Below, piece by piece: positions 2,155 to 22,304 of a stretch of DNA of 22,323 nt. A model generated the notes under the pieces. It made no database searches. It was not told the DNA's origin and saw nothing but the letters and a program-made list of their open reading frames with translations. The position numbers and the translations under genes are program-made. The stretch is from a virus: positions 1 to 22,323 of the IMG/VR virus record IMGVR_UViG_3300031688_000145, one strand, 5' to 3'. How positions within the stretch are numbered: position 1 is the stretch's first letter; each line of letters begins with the position of its first letter.

Positions 2155-2610
2155 TTATTTATTATTTTGATTTAAAACAACTTTAGGATCATTGAAGTCT
2201 TTAGCTATAACTTCTTCTTGAACTTCTTTAATTGTTTTTTTATCTGTAGGATGTACGGTTATAAGAATAGTATCTTCGTGTGTTATTATAATTCTTTTAG
2301 TGCCTGGTTTTGTTATACCTTGATAAGGTGCTTTTATTCTTTCAGTACCATCAGGCGATATTATTGTAACATCACCAATCATAAAAAAAAATGGATGTTC
2401 TTGTTTATGTATTTGAGTTGTTAATGTTTGTCCTTTAGGCATTAAGATTTCTCTTATATAACAATCTTTTATAAAAGTATGTTTTACTGGGTTTTTTTTA
2501 TCACAAGCTTCTTGACCACTAAAAGAATCTTTAGTTTTAATTAATGCTTTTTCAAATTCTTCTATTGCTTGTCTAAATCTTTTAGTTTTATTTAAATCTT
2601 CTATTTCCAT
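2155..2610 (-). CDS. Cupin-like phage protein, 151 aa
   Basis: A helical N-terminus (to ~30) is followed by a compact beta-rich core that reads as a cupin-type barrel: CYIREILMPKGQTLTT, then the HKQEHP pair of histidines, then FFFMIGDVTIISPDGTE, PYQGITKPGTKRI and DTILITVHPT. The His-x3-His spacing and the following GDV strand match cupin motif 1 in outline, but a full metal-binding set (the Glu and the second-motif His) is not obvious. It may therefore be a structural cupin. Small cupin-like proteins of this pattern occur in many marine phage structural clusters, where their role is not established; this statement is from memory. The gene lies between the tail and internal-virion genes with 10- and 35-base gaps. 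Confidence 0.65.
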   Translation of the reverse strand: MEIEDLNKTKRFRQAIEEFEKALIKTKDSFSGQEACDKKNPVKHTFIKDCYIREILMPKGQTLTTQIHKQEHPFFFMIGDVTIISPDGTERIKAPYQGITKPGTKRIIITHEDTILITVHPTDKKTIKEVQEEVIAKDFNDPKVVLNQNNK

Positions 2611-2620
2611 TTAATGTAAT

Positions 2621-4114
2621 TTAATATGCAGATTCTACGTAATCCGAAGATGCAGCAAATAATTCTTTCATACCACCAAGGTCCGTTGTTAAATCTGTAG
2701 ATATTTTAACTGTAGCAAAATAACCTTTTATACCAGTCATTGAAGTTCCAAAAACTATTTCTCCAGGTGCAGCAATGCTATTATTAACTAAATTAGACAT
2801 GTATTTATTTTCTTTTCTAGTAAAACCTGCTCTAAATATTGGAGGATTTAGTGCGGCTGGAAAAACATTACCATATAAAACCGGATCATCATATGCACCT
2901 TCATTATAACTATATACAGCTGGTATTTGAACTCCAGAGCTGTTAGTTGCTGTTGTTATGTCTTGAGTATTTACGATAGTATAATCGTTGAATTCAGGTA
3001 TGGTTTTTATATATCCTATACCGGTAAAATCTGAAGCAAAAGAATCAACTTGCCAGCCATTACTACCTTCGTAATTTACAGTTTTAAATACTTTTGATAA
3101 ACTAACTTTTGGATTAAATATAAATTCTACGCTAGACTTATACTGTGTTCCATAAAATTTTGATCTAGGTTGACTAGCTACATAGTGTTGGTATAAACTA
3201 GAACTATTATTTTCATCAACAGCGTTAGGACCGGCAGTATAAAATTTAGATTTTAAACTTATAGGTTTAGCTGGTTTATAGCTATACAAACTAGTCCAAC
3301 CTTGTACTGATTCATCAAAAGATAAAGTATTGTATGTTGCTGTACCTGGAGTTTCACTATAATATTGTATTGATAATAAATATTGTTTACTATATATATC
3401 CCAACCACCAATTAATCTTCCTTCACCCATAGCTCCAAATTGATCTCTAAAAAAATCAATCATACCATAATTAGATATTTCAACTATACCATTTGTTTGC
3501 AGTCTTAATACTGCGTTTCTATCTTTATCAGTAAAATATTTATTTTGACCATAAACAGCAAAACTTTCAGGGTTTTTACTTATACCAAATTCTCCTGGAA
3601 AAGCTGTTAAAGGACCAATTACTACAGCGCCTGTTGCTGTTAATTGACCACCTTCAGCTGTGTATATAGCATCTTTATCTATTAATGCTCTTGTTACTTT
3701 TTTTTCTTGAAATATTATTAAATTAGTATCTTCAGCATAAAGTTTTTGTATTGATCCATTTATAGGATCTACACTTTTAGTAATATCATCTCCTACAGAA
3801 AACACATTAGTATTGTTAATACCTGTTCTAGAATTAAATATTCCAGAATATATAAGAGCATTACCTCTTATTGATGAATTAGGGTTTTCTTCAACTAAAT
3901 AAGCTTTAACGCCATAATTTGTACTCGTGTTATTGTAACCGCCTCTAATTCTAGCTTCTTCAACAGCCCAATTTTGAATATTAGGATTATTAGGATTTAT
4001 TTGTGGATATGTTGTATCACCATTAGATCCATTCCAAGCATTATCACTTGACCCATTTACTGTTTTACGTAAAATAAAACTATTAAAATATTTAACTTCT
4101 ACGGTTGCTCCCAT
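2621..4114 (-). CDS. Tail stabilisation/nozzle-type structural protein, C-terminal part of the family, 497 aa
   Basis: A beta-rich virion protein with no cysteines. Motifs that I associate with the distal half of large nozzle/stabilisation proteins of marine and crAss-like short-tailed phages are visible: VEEARIRGGYNNTSTNYGVK (51-70), ALIYSGIFNSRTGINN (86-101), KLYAEDTNLIIFQEKKV (124-140), LIDKDAIYTAEGG (144-156), FGISKNPESFAVYG (176-189), KYFTDKDRNAVLRL (192-205) and VEISNYGMIDFFRD (211-224). The proximal half of that family is encoded by the preceding gene, so the two products probably act together at the tail. The start is firm: three stop codons (TAATAATAA) sit just upstream in the A/T leader. 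There is no sign that it is a damaged remnant. Confidence 0.65.
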   Translation of the reverse strand: MGATVEVKYFNSFILRKTVNGSSDNAWNGSNGDTTYPQINPNNPNIQNWAVEEARIRGGYNNTSTNYGVKAYLVEENPNSSIRGNALIYSGIFNSRTGINNTNVFSVGDDITKSVDPINGSIQKLYAEDTNLIIFQEKKVTRALIDKDAIYTAEGGQLTATGAVVIGPLTAFPGEFGISKNPESFAVYGQNKYFTDKDRNAVLRLQTNGIVEISNYGMIDFFRDQFGAMGEGRLIGGWDIYSKQYLLSIQYYSETPGTATYNTLSFDESVQGWTSLYSYKPAKPISLKSKFYTAGPNAVDENNSSSLYQHYVASQPRSKFYGTQYKSSVEFIFNPKVSLSKVFKTVNYEGSNGWQVDSFASDFTGIGYIKTIPEFNDYTIVNTQDITTATNSSGVQIPAVYSYNEGAYDDPVLYGNVFPAALNPPIFRAGFTRKENKYMSNLVNNSIAAPGEIVFGTSMTGIKGYFATVKISTDLTTDLGGMKELFAASSDYVESAY

Positions 4115-4146
4115 AATTTATTATTACTTATTTATTTAATTAATTA

Positions 4147-7100
4147 CTATGTTAGAACCCATAAATAATTATCTGATATAGCACCTAGGCTAGGTATTCT
4201 ATTACAATTTCTTAATTTTACAATAGCTTGAGTACCGTCTTGGCTCCAATTAATAGTACCATTAGTTACATCTATAGAATTAACTTGTTGATATGCTTGA
4301 TTAGGTATAGTTGTTAAACCATAGTAAATATATACAGTTGTTGATGCAAGACCACTTATAGCCAAGGTTGATCCTTCAGGTATAACATCAGAATTTACAA
4401 AAGCTCTAGCTAATAATTCCGCATAACCAGGAGCAGTAGCACTTGTGTTAGAGGTGTTTGAAAAACTCCAAGATATATCAAGCCCAGTGTTGTTTTCTAC
4501 AGAAGTAAGTGTATAACTTCCACCAAATAAAGTTGAGTTATTAGGAGCTGAAGGCGTAGGTACCGCTGTAGCTAATTCAGCAGAACAAGGTTTAGCTGTT
4601 TTTATTTTCTTTTTACCAAATTGATCAAATTCAGCAGTCCATTTTCTTTGAAAATCAAATGATTCAGATATTGGAACACCAGCAGCCCTAGTGTTTGAAG
4701 ATTCATTACCGTATCTTACATTAATGTTTGATAAACCACCTGGATTTTCAACAACTGGATTTGCTACACCACTGTATGCATAATATCTATCTTCATTAGC
4801 GACAGGTGTCCAAGGTGTTGTACAAGACGTATCTGTATAAAACTGAGTTACATATCTAAATCCCCATTCTCTAGCATAAACAGTTGTATTAGGTATTTGT
4901 TGTTCAGCATCATTTCTACTTGTGTAAGCTCCACTTGTTACATAATAAGCAAAAGAAGTTACAGAAGAATCACCTAATTGTTCAATAATATTAGGACCTG
5001 AGTATTTATTAAAAAGTTGTGTTGGATTATAAAAATCTCCAAAACTTAAAAAAGCTGTTATATTTGTTTGAGCACCACCAACACCCTCATTACTATAAAT
5101 TCCAGACGGAGGGCAAGTATCACCAAAAGCATTAGGCAAAGGAGAAACTGCTTCATTAGGACTAACAGGTGTATTAGATCCTTGAGGAAATCTTACCACT
5201 AATCTATATTCTCCAAATTTATCTAGAGGATAATCACTAGCTGGAGTTCCAACATTACCGTCAACATCTCTATACGCTTGGTTTTTACCTACAACAAACA
5301 TTTTACTACCTGTTGTTTGTATAGTCTGTAAATCACTATCAGATCTTCCAGCAACCTTAGCTTCAAAAGCATCTTCAAGAGAAAAAAATCCTTGACCACT
5401 TTGAGGTGATGGTATTGATGCCTGATTTTCTTTGTCTAAAACACCTTGATTTAGAGTAAAACTATTTGAATTTGGACTAACATCATAATTATTTGTTTGA
5501 GTACCACCAAATCTACAACTAGAACCTTCAACATCTTTAGCTGTTGCCCAAGTAGAAGTAGGAGTACCATTAGCGTCTGTTGTTCTATATTGTAAAAAAC
5601 TAGGCCATATAGCTGAAGGATTATCATTAATACCAGGATGTAAGCCATATTGTTCAAAATTATAACTAACAATTATATAAGCACTACCTTCTGTTAAAGG
5701 TTGTTGTTGTGGACCTCCTAATGAAAATGAAGAAGCTTGATCAAAAACTTCTCCTTCTAAACCACTATTATCAGCATTAATTGGTGTTGTTCCATTTCTA
5801 TTTGTATTATAAAGTTTCCAATTGCTACAAGAACCACTCATTGCTAGTGAAGTTTGACTAACATTTCTAGGATCATTAATAGTATCTATATTAGGATTAT
5901 ACAAAGGACCACCAGATGTACCAAATGGAGTTCTGTTTGCATTTGGAACAGCAGGACCAAGTACTGGATTAGCGTCACCAATAGTATTGTTTACTTTAGC
6001 CCAATAAAAACCAGAAGATTCAAAACCACCATTTATACACATGTTTTTTATTTGATAAAAGTATGGGTTTAAATTCACGGTAGGATAACCAGTACTTCCA
6101 TTAATAGATGTGATACAACTTGTTGTTGCGCTACCACCAAGTGTAGTAGAACTAGTACCAGCATCTGTAAGTGTTACGTCTATTGTATATGTGCCTCTAA
6201 GAACCCCTGTTTCTTCAGATAAAATACCATCACCATTTGGCTGGGTTGTTATTATAAGAGGTACAGCTCCAGGTTCTCCAACAGCAGGACTTTGAGAAGC
6301 TATAGCCCAAGTTAAATTATCTTTATTATTAGTTGTATCCGCAGAACCATTGGTTCCAGTAAAAGTGTATATATTACCTGTTTGACCTATAGGTATAGGT
6401 ATACTAACTGGACAATCTATTATTGGCTTTAAATTTTTTAATTTTTCTGTTAATATTATTGTTGTAGGAAATCTATCTTCTTCTGCTACAGATAAATCTA
6501 TCACTTCAAAACTAAAACTAAAAGAATCACGCACAGGAGAGTCTTGCATGTAATTAAAAAATGTATTAGCTGATATTGCTATATAATATCTATCAGGTGT
6601 TTGTAGTCCACCAGCACCTGCTAGTTTTACTAATGTAAATCTATCTGTTGCATCTTCAAGCAACCCATTAGTAACTTTAAAATTATTTATTTCACTTTCA
6701 ACCACAGGTGATTTAGTACCCGCAGTTACAGTATATGGAAAAAACGATATAATAGATGCTGGCTGATTAGTATAACCTGTTACAGAATCATAAATAGCAT
6801 TAGGAGATTGATCAGGCTGTATATCTTCATAAAGATTAAAAGTCCAGCTTTTAGGAGCCAACTGCATATCAGTATTTGTTGTAAAACCTTGTATACCTAT
6901 GCTTGTTAATTCTATAGCTTCATTTAATTGTAATATAGTTCCTGTTGTTGATGTTTCCCAATAAATATCTATTTTTGATTCAAAAGGAGTGGTTTCATAT
7001 ATACCTAAGACTATATCGTAAGTGCTAGCTGCCATTGGTAAAGAACCTATAGGGTTTGAAATATCTGTTTGAGTTGTTCTAGCTAATAATGGATTTGACT

Positions 7101-9552
7101 CTGTTTGGTATATTTCTAAATATTTATCTATAGGAGTCGCTATATTAGAAAGCAAATCATTTTGTTCACCTATAGTACTTACTGTATCGGCTATAATACC
7201 AGGATTAAATTGAATATTATAACTAGGTGCTGCTGAGACATTAGGTGTTACTCTTCCATATAATTGAACTGCACTTCTAAATTGCTTTTGCTCTGGACCA
7301 ACTTCTGTTAAATCCCTAGGTACTTTATTTATATTATCATTTAATAATGTAATTAAATTAATAGTATTCACAGGATCACTTATCGTTAGTGAATCAGATG
7401 CCTCTTTAGGATAACCATTTAATATACCTGGTAGGTATACATTATAATATTCTTGCTCTTGTTGTTTAACTACTATTTTATAAGAATACCATCCTAATGG
7501 ATTATATTCATCAACAGTAGGATCTCCATTATATAAACCAGGCCATCCACTTGCTAGATTGTGTGCATTTTTATCTATAGGTTGATTAAATAATACTTTT
7601 AAAGAATCACCTATCCACGAGTGTATATCATTGCCTATTGCCGAGGTTGTGCTTTCCACATTGTAAGGAAAATATATAGTATCTCCAACAAAAGAAATTC
7701 CCTCGTCACCAGAACCTTGCTTGCTTGCAGATGAAAGAATTGTAGTAGAAGATCTTCCAAATTTATCAGAAAAAACAATACCTACTTGATAATTTCTATT
7801 TTGTTTCAAAGTATGCATTGGATATTCTCTTATAGACGTTCTTTCTAATGAAGGCAATACCGGTTGAGAAATAGAACTTACTGAAAAACTATATTTATTA
7901 GATGCACCTACATTGTAATTAATAGTACTAGGTGGTGTATGTTTGTTTTGAAAATTACCATAAACAACTCTATTACTTATTAATTCTTGAGTTAAAGCTC
8001 TTACTGGTACTTTGTCATAAACTCTTACTAAATCACCTGTAGGTAATGTTTTAAAAGGTTTTGTTCCTTGATAATTATAAGATAATACGTCGTTATAGGT
8101 TCCATCTAAATTTTTACCTAATTCTTCAAAACCATTGTTTCCAGACCTAGGTATAGAATCAACAACCTGTACCGCTTGCCTATCGGATTCTTTGTATAAT
8201 ATTTCTATTTCATTTATTTTTAAAGAAGTAGCAATTTGATTAGCTTTCAAGCCAACATTATTTATATCTAAAGGTAGTGGTATTTGTAAAAATATATTAT
8301 TAACTTTATTTTCCATAAAATTAACAATAGTACTTCTATATGCTTTGTCTTCGTCACCACTTAAAAAATAACCATCTTGTTTAGGTATAAAAGCAGGTTG
8401 AGTAAAAGGAGCCATTATAGAAACTTCACCATCTTCATATTTAAATCTATAGCTAAATCTTACGAATTTATCTTCTAAAAAATCAGGATCTCCGTTAAAA
8501 TTAGGATTATAATTTCTATTTGTAGTAGCACCAGGTGTAGCCGCTACGTGAGTTTCGCCAGGATTCATTTTACTACTAGCATCAATCATGCTGGTAACGT
8601 ATTGATCTATGTAATCGGTACCCCAAGTTGTTTGATTAAAAAATATAGTGGTACCAGCTGGAATAATTGCATCAACTTTACCCGCTGCAACTGTTATAGT
8701 TGTAGGCGTATAACCATCTAATGTGGTTCCAGTAACTAAACCAGCGCTGGCATTTAATGATGTTGTTAATTTAGCACCTAATAATGCTGTATTTAAAACC
8801 CCACTAGGCCCTTTTGCGCCTGGGTTTATACCCTTAAATCCATCAGATTTTAAAACTATACTAGTAGCGTTAATAATTGTTTCTGTTTCTGTAATACCAC
8901 TACCACCATTAGATAGAAAAAGACTGTTATCTTTATAATAAAGCTCTATAGGTTGAAAAGGAGAATATGTTGCTACAGATATTTGATCTTCAGATATATA
9001 ATATGTTGGTGTTGTTGATGATGATGGAGATCTTTCTAAAGCTCTTAATACATTTATTTTACGTGGTTGGTTTCTATTGTCAGTAAAAAATAATATATCT
9101 TCTAATAAGTTAACAGAATTTATAAGAAAATTTTGAGAGAAATTTAAAAAAGCTCCTTCTACTAGTTTAGTTCCTATAGCTGTAACCGTATTATAAACAT
9201 ATATATAGTTGTTAGCTTCTTTTGAATAATTTAAATTTTGAGAATTATAATCAGCAGCATCTAATTCATTATAATCAGTTAAAAATATATAAAGATTATC
9301 ACTTAAGTTATCCGTATACATTCCTATTGTTTTTAGTTTAGGAATTATTACTTCTACACCACCTACTATTTGTTTTGAAAAATCAATTAATTTAAGGTTT
9401 CCTAAAGTATTCTCTAAAGCACCAACATCAGCACCTTCGGATTTACTAACTTGTATATTAACTCCTTCACGATATTCACCATTTGGTAATAACCTGGCAT
9501 CCAGGTCTTTATTCATTTTGGATTTAATAAACGAATTTTTAACTTCTGCCAT
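4147..9552 (-). CDS. Large tail nozzle/stabilisation protein with cysteine-containing C-terminal extension, 1801 aa
   Basis: This is the largest gene in the window. The N-terminus FIKSKMNKDLDARLLPNGEY (8-27), SEGADVGALENTLGN (38-52) and FFTDNRNQPRKIN (155-167) are hallmarks, as I remember them, of the tail stabilisation or nozzle protein of marine/crAss-like podoviruses, functionally comparable to T7 gp12 or P22 gp10. LKINEIEILYKESDR (~440-460) and the beta-rich region to ~1040 continue that core. The first ~1046 residues contain no cysteine, while the remaining ~750 contain nine. That C-terminal part begins at PIIDCPVSIPIPIGQTG and looks like Ig/cadherin-like or adhesin beta domains (TFTGTNG, LTWAIASQ, GTYTIDVTLTD). 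It may contact the host surface. The gene starts 5 bases after the connector gene and stops with TAG at 4147. Tail location is confident; the receptor-binding idea is inference. Confidence 0.75.
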   Translation of the reverse strand: MAEVKNSFIKSKMNKDLDARLLPNGEYREGVNIQVSKSEGADVGALENTLGNLKLIDFSKQIVGGVEVIIPKLKTIGMYTDNLSDNLYIFLTDYNELDAADYNSQNLNYSKEANNYIYVYNTVTAIGTKLVEGAFLNFSQNFLINSVNLLEDILFFTDNRNQPRKINVLRALERSPSSSTTPTYYISEDQISVATYSPFQPIELYYKDNSLFLSNGGSGITETETIINATSIVLKSDGFKGINPGAKGPSGVLNTALLGAKLTTSLNASAGLVTGTTLDGYTPTTITVAAGKVDAIIPAGTTIFFNQTTWGTDYIDQYVTSMIDASSKMNPGETHVAATPGATTNRNYNPNFNGDPDFLEDKFVRFSYRFKYEDGEVSIMAPFTQPAFIPKQDGYFLSGDEDKAYRSTIVNFMENKVNNIFLQIPLPLDINNVGLKANQIATSLKINEIEILYKESDRQAVQVVDSIPRSGNNGFEELGKNLDGTYNDVLSYNYQGTKPFKTLPTGDLVRVYDKVPVRALTQELISNRVVYGNFQNKHTPPSTINYNVGASNKYSFSVSSISQPVLPSLERTSIREYPMHTLKQNRNYQVGIVFSDKFGRSSTTILSSASKQGSGDEGISFVGDTIYFPYNVESTTSAIGNDIHSWIGDSLKVLFNQPIDKNAHNLASGWPGLYNGDPTVDEYNPLGWYSYKIVVKQQEQEYYNVYLPGILNGYPKEASDSLTISDPVNTINLITLLNDNINKVPRDLTEVGPEQKQFRSAVQLYGRVTPNVSAAPSYNIQFNPGIIADTVSTIGEQNDLLSNIATPIDKYLEIYQTESNPLLARTTQTDISNPIGSLPMAASTYDIVLGIYETTPFESKIDIYWETSTTGTILQLNEAIELTSIGIQGFTTNTDMQLAPKSWTFNLYEDIQPDQSPNAIYDSVTGYTNQPASIISFFPYTVTAGTKSPVVESEINNFKVTNGLLEDATDRFTLVKLAGAGGLQTPDRYYIAISANTFFNYMQDSPVRDSFSFSFEVIDLSVAEEDRFPTTIILTEKLKNLKPIIDCPVSIPIPIGQTGNIYTFTGTNGSADTTNNKDNLTWAIASQSPAVGEPGAVPLIITTQPNGDGILSEETGVLRGTYTIDVTLTDAGTSSTTLGGSATTSCITSINGSTGYPTVNLNPYFYQIKNMCINGGFESSGFYWAKVNNTIGDANPVLGPAVPNANRTPFGTSGGPLYNPNIDTINDPRNVSQTSLAMSGSCSNWKLYNTNRNGTTPINADNSGLEGEVFDQASSFSLGGPQQQPLTEGSAYIIVSYNFEQYGLHPGINDNPSAIWPSFLQYRTTDANGTPTSTWATAKDVEGSSCRFGGTQTNNYDVSPNSNSFTLNQGVLDKENQASIPSPQSGQGFFSLEDAFEAKVAGRSDSDLQTIQTTGSKMFVVGKNQAYRDVDGNVGTPASDYPLDKFGEYRLVVRFPQGSNTPVSPNEAVSPLPNAFGDTCPPSGIYSNEGVGGAQTNITAFLSFGDFYNPTQLFNKYSGPNIIEQLGDSSVTSFAYYVTSGAYTSRNDAEQQIPNTTVYAREWGFRYVTQFYTDTSCTTPWTPVANEDRYYAYSGVANPVVENPGGLSNINVRYGNESSNTRAAGVPISESFDFQRKWTAEFDQFGKKKIKTAKPCSAELATAVPTPSAPNNSTLFGGSYTLTSVENNTGLDISWSFSNTSNTSATAPGYAELLARAFVNSDVIPEGSTLAISGLASTTVYIYYGLTTIPNQAYQQVNSIDVTNGTINWSQDGTQAIVKLRNCNRIPSLGAISDNYLWVLT

Positions 9553-9557
9553 TTAAT

Positions 9558-10781
9558 TTAGTATTTTATCCATTTAGATTTACCTCTCATTATTTGAACA
9601 AATTCATTAGATTTAATGTTTGATAATCTTATTTTTGCATTTCTTAATTTAGCACTTTTTTCTTTTTTTAATCTTTGTATTATATACTCAGGTTGATTTA
9701 TTCTGCTAGCCAATATAGCATGCATAACATATGAGTACACGGCTTCTTCTGCTAATTTAGGTATCTGCATCTCTTCATCATAACTAAGACCATCAGATAC
9801 ATATTCTAATATTATTAATTTATCTTTTAAATCACTAGAAAAAGACATTTTTCCTTCTCTATCATTTATAGTAAACCAACCATTTACTTGAGCAAGCTCA
9901 GGTTGCATACCAAACCGTTGACCATAACCCATAAGATTACTTCCATACATAGCCCAAAGACCATCAGCTATTAATCTACCTGTTATTTCATCTCTTATAG
10001 CTTGAACTGTTGCTGGGTTTTGAGATATCCACCGCTCTTCAGTTAAAGAAGTACCGGTTATATCTGCACCGTTATTATCTTGTGTTGGTATTCCTTCTGA
10101 GTCTTGTATAGGTTTTGAATAAGGATTTGAGGTAAGTGTAGTTGGGTATATTATATGTTTAACACCTACATCATCTATCCAAGAAACGTTAACATAGTTA
10201 ACATAATCTTGTGGTAAAGGAACACTAAGGTTATGAGGTATAGTTAATTCTTGAGAATGAATACTTCTTAAAGTATCATAACTAAATTCTTGTAATGCTC
10301 TTTTAGTATGAAATATAACATCTGTTTTTTTAACACTTGATATTAATTTACCAGCACCAACATATGCTACCATAAAATTATTAACAACTTCTTGTACTTG
10401 AATATATTGATAACTACCATAATTATCTTGTACAACTTTACCTAAAGCATCTTTATTACCAAAATTACCTCCATTTTCAGTTAATAATTGTATAACTATA
10501 TAAGTACCAGTAGCTTGTGCAGGTAAAATAAATACGTTATTTATAACGCTAGTTATTATAGTATATTCTGTAAAAGTTCCATTGCCACCAGTTGTACTTC
10601 TGTATAGTCTAAAGTTGTTATTATTATATGACTTAGCTGTAGGATCTCCACTTCCAAAAGTTATATCTGTATTAAAATTTGCCGTAAATGTTGTTTGATT
10701 ATTTGTAGCAATAAATACCTGTGTACCTGCGTAATACTGGGCACTTGTTTCTGTTATTAATCCCCCATTAGGTGTTGCCAT
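9558..10781 (-). CDS. Head-tail connector / tail ring protein with N-terminal beta module, 407 aa
   Basis: Residues ~125-407 form a unit I recognise from marine short-tailed phages, annotated there as tail tubular or connector protein: QEVVNNFMVAYVGAGKLI, a helical KRALQEFSYDTLRSIHSQEL, LPQDYVNYVNVSWIDDVGVK, LIILEYVSDGL, IPKLAEEAVYSYVMHAIL and a basic C-terminus (LRNAKIRLSNIKSNEF, MRGKSKWIKY). It should sit between portal and nozzle. Residues ~10-120 look like a separate beta-sandwich (QYYAGTQVFIATNNQTTFTA, NNNFRLYRSTTGG, GTYIVIQLLTENGGNFGN), the kind of module found at the base of tail fibres. It lies 6 bases after the 253-aa gene and 5 before the nozzle gene. The structural role is likely; the exact ring position is not determinable from sequence alone. 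Confidence 0.7.
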   Translation of the reverse strand: MATPNGGLITETSAQYYAGTQVFIATNNQTTFTANFNTDITFGSGDPTAKSYNNNNFRLYRSTTGGNGTFTEYTIITSVINNVFILPAQATGTYIVIQLLTENGGNFGNKDALGKVVQDNYGSYQYIQVQEVVNNFMVAYVGAGKLISSVKKTDVIFHTKRALQEFSYDTLRSIHSQELTIPHNLSVPLPQDYVNYVNVSWIDDVGVKHIIYPTTLTSNPYSKPIQDSEGIPTQDNNGADITGTSLTEERWISQNPATVQAIRDEITGRLIADGLWAMYGSNLMGYGQRFGMQPELAQVNGWFTINDREGKMSFSSDLKDKLIILEYVSDGLSYDEEMQIPKLAEEAVYSYVMHAILASRINQPEYIIQRLKKEKSAKLRNAKIRLSNIKSNEFVQIMRGKSKWIKY

Positions 10782-10787
10782 AATTTA

Positions 10788-11549
10788 TTAACTTTTTTGA
10801 TTTATTTCTTCTGTCTCTACTTGTTGAGCTGCAGCTTGAACTATATTTGGATCTCTTATAACAATACCTGCATATATTAATATTTTTAATATTAATTCTG
10901 TTTGCTCACAACTATGTAGATCAAATTGAGTAGATCCTGTTGTTGTTGTACTAGGATTATAAACAGCTTCGTTATAAGTATATTGGCCTAAGGTACCTAC
11001 ACTAAATCCCCACCTAGGATCTATAGGTCTTCTTATATAATCTACTTGTATATCTCCAGCACTAACTATGCTAATTGGTTTAACATAAAGATAATTATTT
11101 TCATATAAATATACTGGATAAGTAGTTGTTGGTTTAGTTAATAAAGATTTATTTATATGATAAAAATCACTTCTATCAACTCTTTGAAGCTCTGTTGTGT
11201 TTTTGTAAACTACACTACCTATTCTATATACTGTTGAGTCTGTATTTGCGTAAGAATCTGTTGTAGGTAATGTCCAATAATTAAGATTACCATTGGTTGT
11301 ATATATTGCATTACCAAAAGTTTTGAATATAGAAATTCTATCATCAATGCTAACAACTCTATCGGCATAATCTGTATTCGTTTGAGGTATTCTTATTTGT
11401 TGATTTAAATCTTCAAAGTATTTTTCAAAAATCTCTAATTGCACTTGTGTACCAATACTATTAAACTCAGTTGGTGTCATATACCCCCTTTGTTCCTTGT
11501 TTAATATAAGTAAAACAGTTTGATATACAGTATTTACATTTATAGCCAT
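10788..11549 (-). CDS. Head completion / connector-type structural protein, 253 aa
   Basis: The N-terminus TVYQTVLLILNKEQRGYMTP followed by EFNSIGTQVQLEIFEKYFED is a pattern I remember from Bacteroidota phage structural clusters, where it marks a small protein between capsid and tail genes, probably a head-tail adaptor or ring. The middle (about 65-185) is beta-rich (VVYKNTTELQRVDRSDF, LYENNYLYVKPISIV, IQVDYIRRPIDPRWGF), and the C-terminus has a helix (EQTELILKILIYAGIVIRD) and a short charged tail. The gene starts 15 bases after the foot of the hairpin at 11565-11595, so its expression depends on readthrough or on a promoter I cannot see. Structural placement is moderately sure; a specific function is not. 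Confidence 0.65.
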   Translation of the reverse strand: MAINVNTVYQTVLLILNKEQRGYMTPTEFNSIGTQVQLEIFEKYFEDLNQQIRIPQTNTDYADRVVSIDDRISIFKTFGNAIYTTNGNLNYWTLPTTDSYANTDSTVYRIGSVVYKNTTELQRVDRSDFYHINKSLLTKPTTTYPVYLYENNYLYVKPISIVSAGDIQVDYIRRPIDPRWGFSVGTLGQYTYNEAVYNPSTTTTGSTQFDLHSCEQTELILKILIYAGIVIRDPNIVQAAAQQVETEEINQKS

Positions 11550-11564
11550 TTTTTATTTTTATTA

Positions 11565-11595
11565 TAATAAAGGAGGCGCGAAGCCTCCCTTATTA
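11565..11595 (-). terminator. UUCG-containing hairpin terminator after the 254-aa gene
   Basis: Ten bases after the stop of the 254-aa gene the minus-strand RNA would fold GGAGGC-UUCGC-GCCUCC, extended by A/U pairs and one G-U to about 13 pairs. The U-rich UUUAUUA is the outer 3' arm of the stem and not a separate tail, so terminator strength is uncertain. The core resembles the hairpin at 12405-12428. No plus-strand gene could use it. Confidence 0.7.
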
Positions 11596-11605
11596 GTATT
11601 ACATG

Positions 11606-12370
11606 TTAAGAAAGTTTTTTCTCTATAGATTTAAATATTTCTAAACCTTCATCTGTTTTAAAGAACTGCGCCATAGCAGAATATGGATGTTCGTCAAAAG
11701 GTACAGTCATTAGTTTTTTACCGTTAGACGTCCATTTAAATGTTCTTTGATCATCTGCTAAAGTTATTATTTTAGCTTCAATTGCTTTTATAGCAAAGTT
11801 TCTTAATTGAACATTATCATCTTTAGCTAAACTTAAGAAGTTTCTTGGTTCTTGTTTAGCAAACACAAGTAAATCTCTTTTGATCTCTTTAGAACTCATC
11901 TCTGATACCTTAGATCCCATTTCTACTCTAAGAATTGCTTCAGCTTGATCTATATCAATTGCTCTAGCTGCGTTTAAAGCGTCTATTTCTATTTCTAATT
12001 CAAATAAATCATCTTTAGCGTCTTCAACAACATTTAATTCTGTGTATTTTATGTTTTTTAAAGGATGATATAAAGATAATATTTTTTGTAATGGTTGATT
12101 TTTTTTAGAAACATTTAAAGTTCCATCTCTAAAAACAATATGACCTAATGTGGCTTCACCTTTTTGCTCATCTTTAAAAGGAGAGTTTTGATTAGTTGCA
12201 TATCTAATTTCTCTTTGTTCATTAGTTTTTTCATCAAACCACAATAAGGCATGACGAGTAGTATGTCTTCCTGGTATTTTGTAAGTTAAAGGATCATTAT
12301 TCCCTTTAACATAATATGTTCTATCTTTTATTTCCCAACCATCTTGTTGGGTTATTGTTTTTGTTTTCAT
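11606..12370 (-). CDS. Conserved protein of unknown function between capsid and connector genes, 254 aa
   Basis: I recall this type from uncultured marine phage contigs, always as a hypothetical protein near the capsid gene. The N-terminal ~120 residues are beta-rich with distinctive motifs: WEIKDRTYYVKGNNDPLTY, HALLWFDEKTNEQREIRYAT and GEATLGHIVFRDGTLNV. Residues ~115-200 are helical and acidic (LFELEIEIDALNAARAIDID, then QAEAILRVEMGSKVSEMSSK). The C-terminus ends MTVPFDEHPYSAMAQFFKTD. No catalytic triad, zinc site or membrane segment is visible. The gene is separated from its neighbours by a UUCG-loop hairpin on each side, unlike other genes in the cluster, so its mRNA level may be set independently. 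A capsid accessory, cement or assembly protein would fit, but this is only positional inference. Confidence 0.7.
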   Translation of the reverse strand: MKTKTITQQDGWEIKDRTYYVKGNNDPLTYKIPGRHTTRHALLWFDEKTNEQREIRYATNQNSPFKDEQKGEATLGHIVFRDGTLNVSKKNQPLQKILSLYHPLKNIKYTELNVVEDAKDDLFELEIEIDALNAARAIDIDQAEAILRVEMGSKVSEMSSKEIKRDLLVFAKQEPRNFLSLAKDDNVQLRNFAIKAIEAKIITLADDQRTFKWTSNGKKLMTVPFDEHPYSAMAQFFKTDEGLEIFKSIEKKLS

Positions 12371-12404
12371 GATATAATATAATTAAATAATTAAAAAAAT
12401 AAAG

Positions 12405-12428
12405 TAAGAGTGCCCGAAGGCACCCTTA
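12405..12428 (-). terminator. UUCG-loop hairpin terminator after the major capsid gene
   Basis: On the minus strand, 15 bases after the capsid stop codon, the RNA would fold AAGGGUGCC-UUCG-GGCACUCUU, extended by one more A-U pair. It has ten pairs including one G-U, closed by the very stable C(UUCG)G tetraloop. ACUUUAUUUUUUU follows, so the U-rich tail of an intrinsic terminator is present. Because genes continue downstream in the same direction, it may act as a partial terminator or as a 3' end stabiliser that keeps capsid mRNA abundant. Confidence 0.8.
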
Positions 12429-12442
12429 TCTTTACACTAATA

Positions 12443-13909
12443 TTAAACTCCTTGGAATAAAACAAAGTTGTTAGCAGCTTGTACAACCAAACATCTTTCA
12501 GATAGGAAGTTAACTTCCATAGCATCAAGGTTTGAAGATACAGCACCACCAGCAGAACCAGTTAACCAAGACTTCATACGTCTGTCTTCTGTTTGAGAAG
12601 CTCTATATCTAACGTGTAAGAATGGTCGTCTGATGTTTGTTCCTAGAATTTGGTCATAAACTGATGAAGTTCCAGCCGGAACTAAAACACCTTCTATTGA
12701 AGATACACCTACTTGAGCACCACGTGTAGATGCGTCATTTAAGTATTTCCAATCAGTTTTATAAAAATCATAAGAACCTCTACGGAAACCACTAAATCCT
12801 AGATTTAATGCCATTTCTTCAGAGTTTTCAAATAATCCATAAGCAGTACCTCCCTGTGCTCCGTAAGAAACATTTGAAAGCATGTTGTCAAATTCTAATG
12901 AAGTAGATCTATTTAAGAAAAGCATATTTTCTTCAATAGCTCCTTGAGTATCTAGATTCTTAAGGATTTCATCAAAATCATCTAAACCAGCAGCGCCAGC
13001 AAATCCTATTTCAACATTACCTCTTTGTTGGATAGCAGCAAACATACCTTGTGTACCTTTGAAACCAGCTGCATTTGCAGATCCAGCACCAAGAGCAGGG
13101 GCTAATTCACCTTCAACACATACCATTTCTAAGTAATCTTCAAAACGTAATCTTGTTTCAGATTCAGCTTTTAAGTACCATAAATAACCTGTTGTTCCAT
13201 CTTCTGTAGCAACTTCAACCCAACCAATTTGAGCCATATCTGATCCGTTTATTGTGTAAACGTTTCTGATAATAACTGGTGAGTTAGCAAATTGAGTAAA
13301 AGAAGGTGTAACTGTTATTTGTGGTTGTAAAGCAGTGGCATTAGCTAAAGCTCCAGCACCTGCATTAGAAGTAGCAGCACCTTTAACAAATTCTGAACCG
13401 TAAACAAATATTTTTACTGTAGCACCTAAACCACCTGTTGTTTGAGCAGTATAAGGAGCGACTGTTAAAATACAGTTACCACCAGCACCCGCAACACCAT
13501 TAGTAGCTGTTACAATAGCTTTTATCTCATTACCAGCATTATCCATTGCAACTACTGTTTGACCAGGTCCTATAACACATTGCTGTGGAAGTGGAGCTGC
13601 ACCTACAGCGATAGTAAAAGTAGATACACCAGCATTAACCGCGTTACCTACATTAGTGTAAGCTATGTGTAATCTGTTTTGTTCTGACCAAATTACTTGA
13701 TCTGAAGTCATTGGCATTTCTGCCCCTACCATACGTAAGAATCCTGATAACGTTCTGTTTCCATAACGCTCAACTTCTTGTTCGTATACTTCTGGTAAGT
13801 ATTGTTGTATAAAGTCATTTGCACCCCCATTAAATGCGAGGTATGCATTTGGTAAGAGTTGCTGCGTAGGTGCAGGAACTATCGAACCAAACTGTGGTAT
13901 TAAAGCCAT
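12443..13909 (-). CDS. Major capsid protein (HK97-fold type), 488 aa
   Basis: It lies directly after the scaffold-like gene, as expected for the major capsid protein, and the length is normal. Ala/Gly-rich beta regions (~85-215), which include an Ala-rich NAGAGALANATALQPQ stretch, precede a helical QDLE-like section (SLEFDNMLSNVSYG). The C-terminal third carries GFSGFRRGSYDFYKTDW (~371-387), LNDASTRG, NIRRPFLHVRYRASQTEDRR and MKSWLTGSAGG, which I associate with capsid proteins of crAss-like and related Bacteroidota phages. Base composition is somewhat more balanced than neighbours, reflecting Ala/Gly content and perhaps high expression. The start has no Shine-Dalgarno and an A/T-only leader. 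A strong hairpin with a C(UUCG)G loop follows the stop codon, consistent with high, separately controlled mRNA. The HK97 fold itself is inferred, not seen. Confidence 0.85.
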   Translation of the reverse strand: MALIPQFGSIVPAPTQQLLPNAYLAFNGGANDFIQQYLPEVYEQEVERYGNRTLSGFLRMVGAEMPMTSDQVIWSEQNRLHIAYTNVGNAVNAGVSTFTIAVGAAPLPQQCVIGPGQTVVAMDNAGNEIKAIVTATNGVAGAGGNCILTVAPYTAQTTGGLGATVKIFVYGSEFVKGAATSNAGAGALANATALQPQITVTPSFTQFANSPVIIRNVYTINGSDMAQIGWVEVATEDGTTGYLWYLKAESETRLRFEDYLEMVCVEGELAPALGAGSANAAGFKGTQGMFAAIQQRGNVEIGFAGAAGLDDFDEILKNLDTQGAIEENMLFLNRSTSLEFDNMLSNVSYGAQGGTAYGLFENSEEMALNLGFSGFRRGSYDFYKTDWKYLNDASTRGAQVGVSSIEGVLVPAGTSSVYDQILGTNIRRPFLHVRYRASQTEDRRMKSWLTGSAGGAVSSNLDAMEVNFLSERCLVVQAANNFVLFQGV

Positions 13910-13922
13910 AATTTATTGTTTT

Positions 13923-15188
13923 TTAATTAAATGTTTTTTTCTTTATTTTTAATGATGTAGAATCTTGGCCACTAATTGCTTTTACTTTAAATCCGTTAAC
14001 AAAAACTTCACCTGATGCTGTTTTTCTAGCTTCAGTACTTATGTTTTTGGATTTTGCTATAGTATCTTTAATCGCATCGGTTTTACCTTGTTCATAAAAA
14101 TGCTGAGCAATAGTATCAGCGTTCCTAGCCGCATACATAGCTTTATGATAGCCTTTAGTATCTATAACATCACCTTTTTTATTTAAGAACGTCTTAACTA
14201 TTTTAGTAATATCTGACTGTTGTTCGGCTACTTGTGCAGGATCTTTTACTCCATACCTAAATTTTTTATCTCCTAATTTAAAATCAAAACCTTTGAAATC
14301 ATCATTTAATAGATCTTTGGTACTTTGTTTAAAGTTCTCATGCTTTGCTGCATTTGCTTTTTCATCTTCGTTGTATCGGTTGAAAAAGTCAGTAGCTTTT
14401 TTTTGCTCTTGGGTTACGCCTGGCCTCAACTTGATTTCATCGTAATATTTACCCTTAAGATCTTCTAAAAAACCTTTGGCTTTTGCAACTTCTTCTTTAT
14501 AAGCAAGTTTTTTCTTTCGTACTTCTCTTGCTTCTTCTAATTCCTCATCAAATGAAAAAGAATCTTCAATAATAAAGTTTCTTTCATCATGGTCTAGGTG
14601 AGGTCTAGCTTTTTTGTAATATTCATGTAATAATGTTTTATCATTAACATTGCTGTAGTCAGCATTTAAACGGGTGTAATCTTCAATAGTTCCACCTGTT
14701 TCTTCCATGAAATCGATTAATTTTTCTATATTGTCAGGTAGTTTTTGTGTTTCAACTTCCTTTGATATTTCTTTTTGTTCTGATGCGGTTGTGGTAGTTT
14801 CATCGCTTCCTGCCACTCTATTCTTGTCAATATTATCTTCTTCATCATCTATTAATTGTAAAGGAGATTCTACTTCTTGCTTTTCAGCAACATTTTCATC
14901 GGACTCGATCCGTACTTTGTGGTCCACTTCCGCGCTAACTTCGGTAGGTTTGACCACATCCACTTTCTTTGTTTCTCCGACTTGAATGGCATCTTCTTTT
15001 TGTTTTATAAGTTGTTCATTTTTATTAACAGCACTTAAGTCTAGTTTTGTTATTTTAGGTTCTGATAAATCACCTAAGTTTTTCATTTTTTTTGCAGACT
15101 TTACTTTAAACGTACCTTCTTGTTGTTCTGTAGTGTTTTCTTTTATTTTCACTTCAGGCTCTTTTACTTCTATTTTTTTTGTTGACAT
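13923..15188 (-). CDS. Putative scaffolding protein, 421 aa
   Basis: The gene sits between portal and major capsid protein, the classic scaffold position. The product is very hydrophilic. The N-terminal ~150 residues are disordered, Lys/Glu/Thr-rich (EVKEPEVKIKENTTEQQEG). Residues ~155-260 are helical with likely coiled coil (LLHEYYKKARPHLDHDERNF, LEEAREVRKKKLAYKEEVAK), followed by mixed helix and a basic C-terminus (TSLKIKKKTFN), where scaffolds usually bind capsid protein. No protease triad is visible, so this is a scaffold without an obvious fused protease. Residues ~63-103 are encoded by a locally GC-richer stretch (42-47% against a more AT-rich surround). The role rests on position and composition and not on homology; the alternative is another internal head protein. 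Confidence 0.65.
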   Translation of the reverse strand: MSTKKIEVKEPEVKIKENTTEQQEGTFKVKSAKKMKNLGDLSEPKITKLDLSAVNKNEQLIKQKEDAIQVGETKKVDVVKPTEVSAEVDHKVRIESDENVAEKQEVESPLQLIDDEEDNIDKNRVAGSDETTTTASEQKEISKEVETQKLPDNIEKLIDFMEETGGTIEDYTRLNADYSNVNDKTLLHEYYKKARPHLDHDERNFIIEDSFSFDEELEEAREVRKKKLAYKEEVAKAKGFLEDLKGKYYDEIKLRPGVTQEQKKATDFFNRYNEDEKANAAKHENFKQSTKDLLNDDFKGFDFKLGDKKFRYGVKDPAQVAEQQSDITKIVKTFLNKKGDVIDTKGYHKAMYAARNADTIAQHFYEQGKTDAIKDTIAKSKNISTEARKTASGEVFVNGFKVKAISGQDSTSLKIKKKTFN

Positions 15189-15219
15189 AATATGATAATA
15201 TAAAATTAATAATAAACTA

Positions 15220-17622
15220 TTAAGAACTAAATTGCTCTAAACCAGATTCATTAAGTGGTCCACTGCCAGATTCAAAATCAGTAGGTAGTAAATCACTTTG
15301 TCTTTGCTCAATCATTTTACTTTGTTGAGTAGCTTGAATTTGTGTTCTTTTATCTTTTCGATCTTCTATTTCAGCTTCTCTACCTGTTTGACGTTGAGCT
15401 TCCATTTTAGCAAGTTGTAAATTGTATTGAAATTCTTCAGCTAATATTTGTTTTTTAATTTCAGCCTCTTGCTCCATCCTTTGTATTTCAAATTGAGATT
15501 TCGCTTGTTCAATTTGTATTTCTGTTTGAGCTAATGCTTGGTTTTTTTGAACCTCAGATAAAGCAGCTTTTTCAGCAGATTCAGCATTGGCCTGTGCTTG
15601 AGCTTGTATGTTTTCTAATTGTTCAGCTCTTGCTTTTTCTTGTTTTTGTTTTTGTTTAGACTTAAGTAATTGATTAGCTAATTTTAAATTACTTATCTCT
15701 CTTATATCTATTGCATCTTCTAATCCAATATTACCTGATTGAAGAGCTATTTGTATACTTTTTTCTAATTGTGCTTTTTCTTCTTCATCAGGCTCTAACT
15801 CTAAAAATATACCAAAATCATGCATGTGTAAAGATTCTAATTCAGCAAGTGCTCCTACATTAAATGTATTTATACTTTTCATTAGAGAGTCTTTAGTTAA
15901 AGGATATCTTAACATATCAGCCGCTCTTAAACTTATGTTTTCACAAACTCTAACAGTCATATACATTAAAGATTGAAGTATATGTCTAGTAGCAGTATTA
16001 GAACTAGCTGCCGCTAATTTTTGTAAACCAACTAAAGCATTTTTATCTGGAGTACTTCCATCTCTAGCTTCATTTAATCCTGTTACGTCTCTTATCATTT
16101 GTAAATAATACTGATAAGTTTGTATCATTGCTTGTATTTTAGATATACCTGAAGAGCTTTGTAATTCTTGAACAGGTATTTTACCTCTATTTGCATCACC
16201 ATCCTGTGTTAAAGATCTACCTACTATACTACCTGTTTGAAAATACATGTTAAGTGCTTCTTGAGGATTATAGTTTGTGCCATTGCCAAGATCTACTTCA
16301 GCTAAGCCATCTACGTCTAAGTAAACTCCATCAGGAACTATTCGAGCTAATACTTGTTGTAATTTTAAGTGTGTTATTTGAATCATATCAGCAAAACTAA
16401 CAGTCTTACTTACTATGGATTCTATTCTTCCTTGATACATTCTAGGAGAAGTTATTATATAATTCATGTTAACTTTAGTAGTATCGGCTTGAGGTCTAGT
16501 CATATTTTCTGACAATTCCCATTTTAACATATTATCTCCTAAACCTAAAACTTTAGCACCAGTATATAAAACTTCTATGGACCTAGAAACTCTTTCAAAA
16601 TTATCGCTAGGTGGAGGATTAAAAGTATCAGGTTTTTCTAATATTTTTTCTAAACCTTGTTCTGTTCTTTTTATTTTAAAAACTTGATCGTGATAAGTTT
16701 TATATTCAAAAAACAAAACTTGAACTAAATCTTGTTGATTTTGTCCCCACCAAGTATTAGTATAAGAATTTCTACCTGGATATTTTTGTATATTTTCTAA
16801 TTCTTTATCAGTTATGTCGGGAAATTGTCTTTTTAATTCTGACAAAGACATATTTTTAACTTCACCTACATAATATATATCTTCAAAATTAGGATCATCT
16901 GTGTAAGACCAAACTAAATGTGCTGGATTAACATACTCTACTGTTATTCCTTCCGATAAATTAAAGTTTGTTTTAACCGCACTTATACCTAACACCGTTA
17001 AATCATAAGCAAGTTGTTTTTTAGTTTCATCAAACTTATTATAATTTAAAACATTATTTATTATTTCTTCTTCTGCTATTTCAATACTTTGTTTATAACT
17101 AAGTTGCATAAAAAGATCTAACTCTTCTGGGTCATCTGGTAATATATCAGGATTAGCTGATGCATAAAAACTTCTTCCTGTTAATTGTGTTAATTCTGCT
17201 ATTGTTTCTTTTTCTTTAATATCTCTTAAAGCATTAGTAGCATAATCTGTTCTTATTTTTATACCATAAGGATCACTTGCAAAAGATTTTATTTCATATC
17301 CTTTTTCAGTCATACCATTAACAACTATATCTACAAACTTAGATAATACAGGGACAGGTGTCCAGTCTAAATTAAGATAAGATAAATCACCGTTTATAGC
17401 TAATTCATCTTTATATTTTTGTACAGGCTGTTCACCTCTTGCATATAATCTTAATCTATTAAAGTTTTGAAAATTATTAATAAATCTATTTTGACCGCTA
17501 CTGTTTCTAAACCATTCATGCTCAATAGCTTGAGCAACGGCTAAACCATATTCCCAAGAACTTTTCTCTTCTTCAGGTACCACCTGATCTGGAAAACTGC
17601 TGTTGTAGTTAATGTTAATCAT
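15220..17622 (-). CDS. Portal protein, 800 aa
   Basis: This is the portal vertex protein, through which DNA is packaged and ejected. It directly follows TerL with an 8-base overlap (ATGATTAA), a normal portal position, and the length matches the large portals of crAss-like and marine podoviruses. Motifs include RLRLYARGEQPVQKYK (~56-71), LNLDWTPVPVLSKFVDIVVN (~83-102), the central ISPRMYQGRIESIVSKTVSF, and IRDVTGLNEARDGSTPDKNA (~510-530) followed by helices LVGLQKLAAASSN, the usual clip/stem/wing region. Residues ~640-765 form a long Gln/Glu/Ala-rich coiled coil (KQKQEKARAEQLENIQAQA), probably the barrel extending into the head. No frameshift or missing block is evident. Portal identity is by pattern and context; a profile search would settle it. 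Confidence 0.85.
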   Translation of the reverse strand: MININYNSSFPDQVVPEEEKSSWEYGLAVAQAIEHEWFRNSSGQNRFINNFQNFNRLRLYARGEQPVQKYKDELAINGDLSYLNLDWTPVPVLSKFVDIVVNGMTEKGYEIKSFASDPYGIKIRTDYATNALRDIKEKETIAELTQLTGRSFYASANPDILPDDPEELDLFMQLSYKQSIEIAEEEIINNVLNYNKFDETKKQLAYDLTVLGISAVKTNFNLSEGITVEYVNPAHLVWSYTDDPNFEDIYYVGEVKNMSLSELKRQFPDITDKELENIQKYPGRNSYTNTWWGQNQQDLVQVLFFEYKTYHDQVFKIKRTEQGLEKILEKPDTFNPPPSDNFERVSRSIEVLYTGAKVLGLGDNMLKWELSENMTRPQADTTKVNMNYIITSPRMYQGRIESIVSKTVSFADMIQITHLKLQQVLARIVPDGVYLDVDGLAEVDLGNGTNYNPQEALNMYFQTGSIVGRSLTQDGDANRGKIPVQELQSSSGISKIQAMIQTYQYYLQMIRDVTGLNEARDGSTPDKNALVGLQKLAAASSNTATRHILQSLMYMTVRVCENISLRAADMLRYPLTKDSLMKSINTFNVGALAELESLHMHDFGIFLELEPDEEEKAQLEKSIQIALQSGNIGLEDAIDIREISNLKLANQLLKSKQKQKQEKARAEQLENIQAQAQANAESAEKAALSEVQKNQALAQTEIQIEQAKSQFEIQRMEQEAEIKKQILAEEFQYNLQLAKMEAQRQTGREAEIEDRKDKRTQIQATQQSKMIEQRQSDLLPTDFESGSGPLNESGLEQFSS

Positions 17623-21923: not shown

Positions 21924-22304
21924 TTATTTATCTTTTCCTTTTATTTTTTCATAAGTTCTTAAACCTCCTAATCCCAGCATGCCTAGTAACACGGTCATTA
22001 AATGATCCATTTGTAAAGCTGGTGGAGTTTCTGTGGTTTTTGTTATCCATATAAATAAGTCTCTTATGACAAAGTTATAAGCTAATGCTACTCCACATAT
22101 CCAACCAATAAATGGTCTCCATCCGGCAACAAATAATGTACGATGCTGAGCTTCAACTGCATTGATTTTTGTTTGTAATTCTATTAATTTTTCAGGATCT
22201 AACTCCTTACCTTTTATTGCTTCTCTTATATCCCAAGCTAAATTTCCAGCAACAGATTTATTTCCATTACCTTTACCTAAAAGACCTAGTAGTAATTTAA
22301 ACAT
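21924..22304 (-). CDS. Holin, 3-TM phage holin family type, 126 aa
   Basis: Holins form lesions in the inner membrane that time lysis. The pattern fits the 3-TM phage holin family: a short hydrophobic N-terminus (FKLLLGLLG), a polar helical section with AQHRTLFVAGWRPFIGWICG (52-71), a hydrophobic segment ~62-88 (ALAYNFVIRDLFIWI), a PP turn at 94-95, and a second hydrophobic segment ~100-115 ending GMLGLGGLRTYEKIKG. The GWRPFIGW and LLGLGG-x-RTYEK signatures are distinctive of the family as I know it. Its start overlaps an upstream stop as TAATG. No endolysin or spanin is adjacent within the window, so the lysis partner must lie elsewhere, possibly beyond the right edge. Confidence 0.85.
   Translation of the reverse strand: MFKLLLGLLGKGNGNKSVAGNLAWDIREAIKGKELDPEKLIELQTKINAVEAQHRTLFVAGWRPFIGWICGVALAYNFVIRDLFIWITKTTETPPALQMDHLMTVLLGMLGLGGLRTYEKIKGKDK

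Follow-up and report, generated by a model that had tools for sequence, protein, structure and literature searches.

A two-gene crAss-type tail muzzle whose upstream piece probably carries a cadherin-like stalk and a variable candidate host-contact tip at its free end

A crAss-type tail muzzle is characteristically a single polypeptide, whereas the locus studied here holds two adjacent muzzle genes, P0001 and P0002 (Table 1), the first of which ends in a long segment. The question is what has been placed at this gene end, and which part of it could read the host. The window, i.e. the whole stretch of DNA analysed, is an entire IMG/VR virus record of 22,323 nt whose minus strand carries crAss-related podoviral structural genes, and seven of ten scanned window proteins matched PHROG head-and-packaging families, including terminase and portal. 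The closest terminase in GenBank is that of MW202828 (63%), followed by Flavobacterium elemo (46%) and Cellulophaga phages (37–40%). At E 1e-5, tblastn with the terminase returned 87 records (Flavobacterium 68, Cellulophaga 15, Tenacibaculum 2, Maribacter 1, Caudoviricetes sp. 1) and with the capsid protein 85, none of which is a gut crAss phage by name; the records of five relatives carry the labels Pervagoviridae, Pachyviridae, Elemovirus or unplaced. Rfam and tRNA scans across the window found nothing, and the DNA repeats at 2600–9600 are short imperfect families.

Muzzle identity is supported from both ends. P0002 matches the Pfam family crAss_MUZ_C at E 2e-11 (44.6 bits, cut-off 27), and phrog_14478 is matched by both proteins, by P0001 best at its start and by P0002 at 914–1217 of 1474. 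The profile of the P0001 core aligns with residues 9–152 of crAss001 gp44 (hhalign probability 92.9), an N-terminal match also obtained by HMM (iE 4.8e-7 in a nine-sequence set), and that of P0002 with residues 1034–1292 (probability 96.7). Against unbroken relatives, in one alignment also containing the fused locus L150, both profiles reach probability 100. Neither profile found a PDB chain at E 1, so that hhalign, HMM and Pfam together carry the link to gp44. The window's muzzle proteins gave no profile match to gp44 about 155–1033, and a fragment profile comparison with its IG2/crass stretch was weak (probability 30; 6 for the start of P0002). By these profiles, P0001 shares homology with the first part of gp44 and P0002 with the last. 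In crAss001, the muzzle gene likewise follows capsid and small structural genes, but gp44 is one chain of 1371 aa. It forms a hexameric plug at the tail tip, with a distal domain that, in a proposal made without a test, is likely to touch the cell and to set the gate-opening changes in motion (PMC10172136). By analogy with this structure, P0001 and P0002 would together complete one beta-propeller, and the order of parts suggests where the break lies relative to the IG2/crass, i.e. distal, domain. Residues about 205–318 of P0001, absent or variable in many relatives, would by the same order take the place of gp44 IG1. Muzzle length in crAss phages varies by insertions into the crass and IG2 domains, with no break mentioned in the available part of that report (PMC10172136).

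Table 1. Features of the two muzzle genes (window positions; residue numbers refer to P0001 unless stated otherwise)
Feature	Positions	Strand	Description	Basis
P0001	4147..9552	-	1801 aa, upstream piece of split crAss-type muzzle, C-terminal tip modules	phrog_14478, E 1.6e-51
P0002	2621..4114	-	497 aa, downstream muzzle piece with crAss_MUZ_C, no cysteine	PF25729
Core	6913..9552	-	residues 1–880, conserved muzzle core; ETTPFESKIDIYWETSTTG at 853–871	
Core variable zone	8599..8940	-	residues about 205–318, putative place of gp44 IG1	occupancy 0.38–0.63 in 201–325
Cadherin-like sandwich 1 (predicted)	6436..6900	-	residues 885–1039, no cysteine; extra material begins	
Cadherin-like domain 2 (predicted)	6094..6435	-	residues 1040–1153, first cysteine pair	6bxu_B
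Cys1047	6412..6414	-	first cysteine, probable partner of Cys1146	co-occurrence
Cys1146	6115..6117	-	probable partner of Cys1047	co-occurrence
Cys1242	5827..5829	-	possible partner of Cys1480 (weaker)	co-occurrence
Cys1480	5113..5115	-	possible partner of Cys1242 (weaker)	co-occurrence
Beta-rich block	4585..6087	-	residues 1156–1656, no confident match, ends in KWTAEFDQFGKKKIKTAKPC	
Terminal domain	4150..4584	-	residues 1657–1801, hypervariable, best host-contact candidate	
Gap between muzzle genes = break site A	4115..4146	-	32 nt	
Break site B	3329..3358	-	P0002 residues about 253–262, place of the MW202828-type break; intact in the window	

The explanation that we regard as fairly probable is a crAss-type tail muzzle, a T7-nozzle-like tip plug, built from the two polypeptides P0001 and P0002. 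The gene break would give P0001 a free C-terminus at a loop that is short in unbroken relatives, and this end would bear a stack of two cadherin-like sandwiches as a stalk, a beta-rich block some 500 residues long and a terminal domain of 145 residues. Projecting from the muzzle, the stack would bring the terminal domain to the host surface, and contact would be relayed via the stalk to the muzzle gate. The terminal domain may thereby act as a tip for receptor contact that is renewed through substitution and exchange, a reading favoured because this domain evolves several-fold faster than the core and, in some phages, departs from the core's kinship.

An AlphaFold2 model of residues 860–1801 (mean pLDDT 79.7, pTM 0.64) had no clear match in a viral structure library. 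Residues 885–1153 were aligned with cadherins by Foldseek at E 1.7e-6, yet with an rmsd of 10.7 Å over 258 columns, and VIA gave two-domain cadherin matches (model residues 26–294) with Z up to 10, mostly at rmsd 8–11 Å over about 180–200 residues. Sandwich 1 was aligned only inside these loose two-domain matches (Z 9–10). Domain 2 alone (model residues 181–294) superimposes on 6bxu_B with Z 9.8 and 2.1 Å over 92 residues. Residues 1040–1153 are thus predicted to have a cadherin-like fold, resembling protocadherin-15 and E-cadherin, with a looser likeness over 885–1153; unlike in true cadherins, no Pfam match is present in the window's tail at E 0.1. The zone 891–1039 is filled in all 84 rows of the alignment of relatives and the zone 1040–1155 in 83, the unfilled row being taken to be L056, whose ORF is apparently frameshifted. 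The cadherin-like pair may have been inserted at the time of the gene split.

For the remainder of the tail, no confident match was obtained. A second model, of residues 1150–1801, reached a mean pLDDT of 75.6, and nothing convincing was found for this stretch in PHROGs, Pfam, PDB sequences or phage tblastn; the best Foldseek E was 0.065 (none ≤0.001) and the best VIA Z 4.8, with weak TNF-like, jelly-roll and tail-tip rows, and no new fold is proposed. The Ig- or cadherin-like character suspected from the sequence is supported by structure prediction at 1040–1153. A near-relative scan using only residues 1150–1801 yielded a single locus, L157, which lies on the same contig as L001, a sequence 99.9% identical to the window. 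A scan of the best 80 of 109 relatives with two short conserved stretches of the block placed it within the muzzle ORF in 79 of 79 loci, and the downstream gene came next in the 75 loci containing that gene.

Variation is concentrated at the very end. All pairs among 23 long rows (L004 and L138 left out) were compared, and in the six with a core identity of at least 0.85 the median identities were 0.88 (core), 0.84 (cad1), 0.89 (cad2), 0.78 (block) and 0.42 (terminal domain); in 17 of 17 pairs with a core identity of at least 0.75, the terminal domain is less identical than the block. Core, block and terminal identities are 92, 85 and 44% for L097/L114, 88, 87 and 44% for L022/L002, and 88, 62 and 27% for L084/L081, with less contrast in very close pairs such as L148/L019 (core 98%, terminal 97%) and L015/L014 (core 91%, terminal 98%). 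Terminal-domain dN is about 6–13 times that of the core in six close pairs, with dN/dS of 0.30–0.68 versus 0.08–0.16, the terminal domain being the highest zone in four of the six. Part of this excess may stem from import by recombination, from relaxed constraint or from poor alignment. For five of the 23 rows (L005, L136, L087, L104 and L084), the phage that is clearly nearest in the terminal domain is not the one nearest in the core. As it differs strongly between close relatives, the terminal domain is the likeliest place of host contact, a candidate by its variability. A sequence-only reading had named the whole cysteine-containing end as a candidate host-contact region and suggested a diversity comparison; this end does hold the best candidate in the window, and diversity does rise there, but most strongly in the last 145 residues and not throughout the block. 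Two peculiar cases were noted beside this. The L015/L014 pair reverses the usual contrast, with tail zones 98–100% identical, perhaps because the whole tail, or part of the core, was recently exchanged, and L004 (ORF 10001–15442) has a post-block end unlike any other terminal domain, either an assembly chimaera or a true replacement.

The same variability could be read differently. The tail modules might be mainly a structural stalk or skirt, with receptor binding carried out by fibres encoded outside the window and a terminal domain that is little constrained, an alternative that we consider rather unlikely. It gains from the 60 of 84 rows that have no terminal domain, from crAss001, where fibre proteins are docked on hubs according to the part of the source available, and from terminal-domain dS, which is raised as well (1.3–4.2 times that of the core in the six close pairs), with other tail zones reaching similar dN/dS in two pairs (cad1, at 0.69, exceeds the terminal domain in L084/L081, and cad2, at 0.39, in L104/L102). 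However, a domain in decay would hardly keep its length (138–165 aa in long rows other than L138) and, as judged by eye, its aromatic end, and the kinship mismatches suggest exchange. A receptor-contact tip at the end of P0001 is the preferred reading, albeit neither terminal domain nor block is required across the lineage, as the former is absent in 60 of the 84 rows and the latter in six.

Where the extra material begins was traced by comparison with unbroken muzzles. In Cellulophaga phi38:1, Tenacibaculum Gundel_1 and Flavobacterium elemo, the window's profiles reach probability 100 on both sides of the break, but the muzzle is one gene. The end-of-core motif (ET-P-S--diY-E) is present at 875–910 in Gundel (iE 2e-5) and at 821–870 in the truncated L245 (0.0036), the only significant cases in the unbroken set, and weakly but in order at 814–840 in phi38:1 (0.81). 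P0002-like sequence begins at 948 in Gundel and at 867 in phi38:1, leaving 37 and, from the weak match, 26 residues between the flanking HMM matches, compared with about 920 residues plus a gene end at the same loop in the window. In Panino and MW202828, both broken further downstream, 42 and 53 residues separate a weak motif from the P0002 match. Since unbroken relatives thus have only some 25–55 residues there (some of the matches being weak), the extra material, by this comparison, begins at about residue 885, some 160 residues ahead of the cysteine step described below; conservation along P0001 drops at about residue 895. The loop seems open to insertion, as L150, which is unbroken, has roughly 90 residues there, judged by eye. 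The L150 muzzle (L150:4667–11092, 2142 aa) also extends several hundred residues beyond the muzzle C-terminal domain.

The cysteines, by which this region had first been noticed, mark a position inside the added part. P0001 has nine, at 1047, 1146, 1172, 1242, 1346, 1480, 1577, 1656 and 1783, and P0002 none, just as the sequence-only reading had it. With nine uniformly placed cysteines, the chance of the first falling at or after 1047 is about 4e-4. Low cysteine content is common in the window, as six of 16 scored ORFs (P0002 and five others) have none, and the cysteine-free core is not strict in relatives: only 16 of 86 aligned rows, the window included, lack a cysteine before column 1047, and many relatives have one near 64–75. 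Counted over 84 rows (L150 and L004 excluded), cysteines per 100 residues amount to 0.50 (1–200), 0.29 (201–435), 0.04 (436–890) and 0.05 (891–1039), and then to 0.98 (1040–1155), 0.93 (1156–1656) and 0.92 (1657–end), i.e. 21 in 50,235 residues at 436–1039 versus 91 in 9,253 at 1040–1155. The family-wide feature is this step near residue 1040, not a strict absence of cysteine from the core. It had been thought to coincide with the start of the cadherin-like domains; PIIDCPVS does stand at the opening of domain 2, where the single-domain structure match also begins (residue 1040), but the cysteine-free sandwich 1 precedes it (about 885–1039).

Two of these residues behave as a pair. In 85 scored rows (one row without letters at the sites omitted), Cys1047 and Cys1146 are both present in 38 and both absent in 47, and since neither occurs singly, they probably form a disulphide staple across one domain in the released virion. 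On a core tree built from 673 columns by a quick LG+G4 search, each site changes at least nine times, and both change together in six of six supported independent pairs (p 0.031). For Cys1242 and Cys1480, the corresponding pattern of 30/3/0/17 with 3-column slack (27/4/2/17 without) is weaker and did not reach significance across independent pairs (median p 0.125).

Did the block arrive together with the gene break, as a single event at residue 1047? This had been part of the sequence-only reading and is now clearly unlikely. In its favour, all split rows with an intact junction keep some tail (at least 221 residues after 890), and the tree is compatible with an early gain and later losses. 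However, the extra material starts near 885, a cysteine-free cadherin-like zone stands before 1047 in 84 of 84 rows, and six split rows (L054, L058, L059, L062, L064 and L066), with tails of only 221–233 residues after 890, have no block, which makes the split independent of it; according to the alignment for five of the six, they end after cadherin-like domain 2. What holds of an adhesin-like block added behind the nozzle core is a length-variable region with cadherin-like domains and a block of variable presence among relatives. The block zone comprises at least 60 residues in 77 of 84 rows, not all homologous, and the terminal zone does so in 24. On the core tree, long forms make up one supported group (24 rows, the window among them), with L138 elsewhere. 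Short forms nest among longer ones, so that they likely arose by loss. The 906-aa ORF of L056, a candidate for a tail-less form, was ruled out as its tail continues in a second ORF.

The gene break itself recurs across relatives. In 127 of 151 loci, the upstream ORF is complete and the downstream ORF stands apart from it; one locus is fused (L150), 19 are without a complete upstream ORF >800 aa and four without a downstream ORF; two genes are thus found in 127 of the 128 loci containing both parts with a complete upstream ORF >800 aa. Duplicate contigs are included in the 127, which represent 94 distinct upstream proteins. Overall, 132 complete upstream ORFs >800 aa were available (99 distinct; 86 rows at 92% identity, including the window), and the model alignments A1 and A5 comprised the window plus 52 of 68 and 46 of 55 candidates, respectively. 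Complete split upstream ORFs are 1042 to 1868 aa long, L056 aside. The gap between the genes is 1–53 nt in 93 of 94 distinct rows (1428 nt in L056) and falls in all three phases (37/32/25), arguing against a programmed fusion. That P0001 and P0002 are really one gene, either interrupted by a mistake in sequencing or assembly or joined through a frameshift or read-through, is scarcely credible, the unbroken muzzles of phi38:1, elemo and Gundel and the frame-error-like breaks of L056 and Panino being outweighed by the recurrence of this break in 94 distinct upstream proteins with gaps in every phase, and by the window's own AT-rich gap after a TAG stop. Muzzle ORF breaks resembling frame errors, not stable splits, were seen at L056:9698–13842 and PP540027 (L155) 5403–9316. 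Among the titles and abstract starts listed by searches of the open PMC literature, none describes a split muzzle, which may be in print elsewhere.

A second break was found in the clade of MW202828 (MW202828.1, 5634–11654), a Manatee Spring record with related IMG/VR loci. Like the window, it has a broken muzzle and a cysteine-richer upstream extension. Here, the first loop is short and the break lies at P0002 position about 253–262; the upstream piece ends in a tail some 350 residues long, and a 183-aa gene stands before the separate downstream gene. Among the best 80 of 181 IMG/VR loci of this type, 49 have an upstream and a separate downstream piece, 11 are without a downstream piece, 18 are truncated, two have a fragmented upstream piece, and none has a fused muzzle; about 1 kb or more often lies between the pieces (L247–L326). 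In 53 complete distinct ORFs, a set excluding truncated ORFs and matches past HMM position 300, the tails are 277–704 aa long (median 352) and in every case cysteine-denser than the rest (3.24 versus 0.94 per 100 overall). In L255, L264, L280 and L298, the match continues past HMM position 300, yet the downstream piece is separate. The MW202828 tail and the window block show no detectable relation (probability 0.06). Being at different places, the two breaks are best read as separate events. From at least two clades with different loops and long, cysteine-enriched upstream modules each time, the tip plug itself, and not just the fibres, can be read as a modular receptor-binding platform with a two-chain propeller, muzzle breaking then being a repeated route to a free tail-tip end; we give this generalization even chances.

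Gains of repeated adhesion-type domains are also described for BACON-repeat and Ig-lectin tail proteins of crAss-like gut phages, but in the parts of these reports available the genes are near tail genes or are tail fibres, with no broken-muzzle extensions (PMC6949934, PMC12386605). Together, the two break sites suggest that a conserved virion propeller can withstand interruption of its chain at two places, a point of interest for tail-tip evolution and for how host specificity might be read from metagenomes. The relatives form a natural series, from no add-on (unbroken) via stalk and stalk plus block to stalk, block and variable terminal domain, through which the part that reads the host could be sought directly. 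Outside the muzzle genes, a 126-aa protein at 21924–22304 matches GTA_holin_3TM (PF11351, E 2.4e-10), and a 151-aa gene without a Pfam match directly follows the muzzle (2155–2610); a sequence related to the latter, with GITKPGTKRII, stands after the muzzle in L056, and L060 has a different 136-aa ORF instead.
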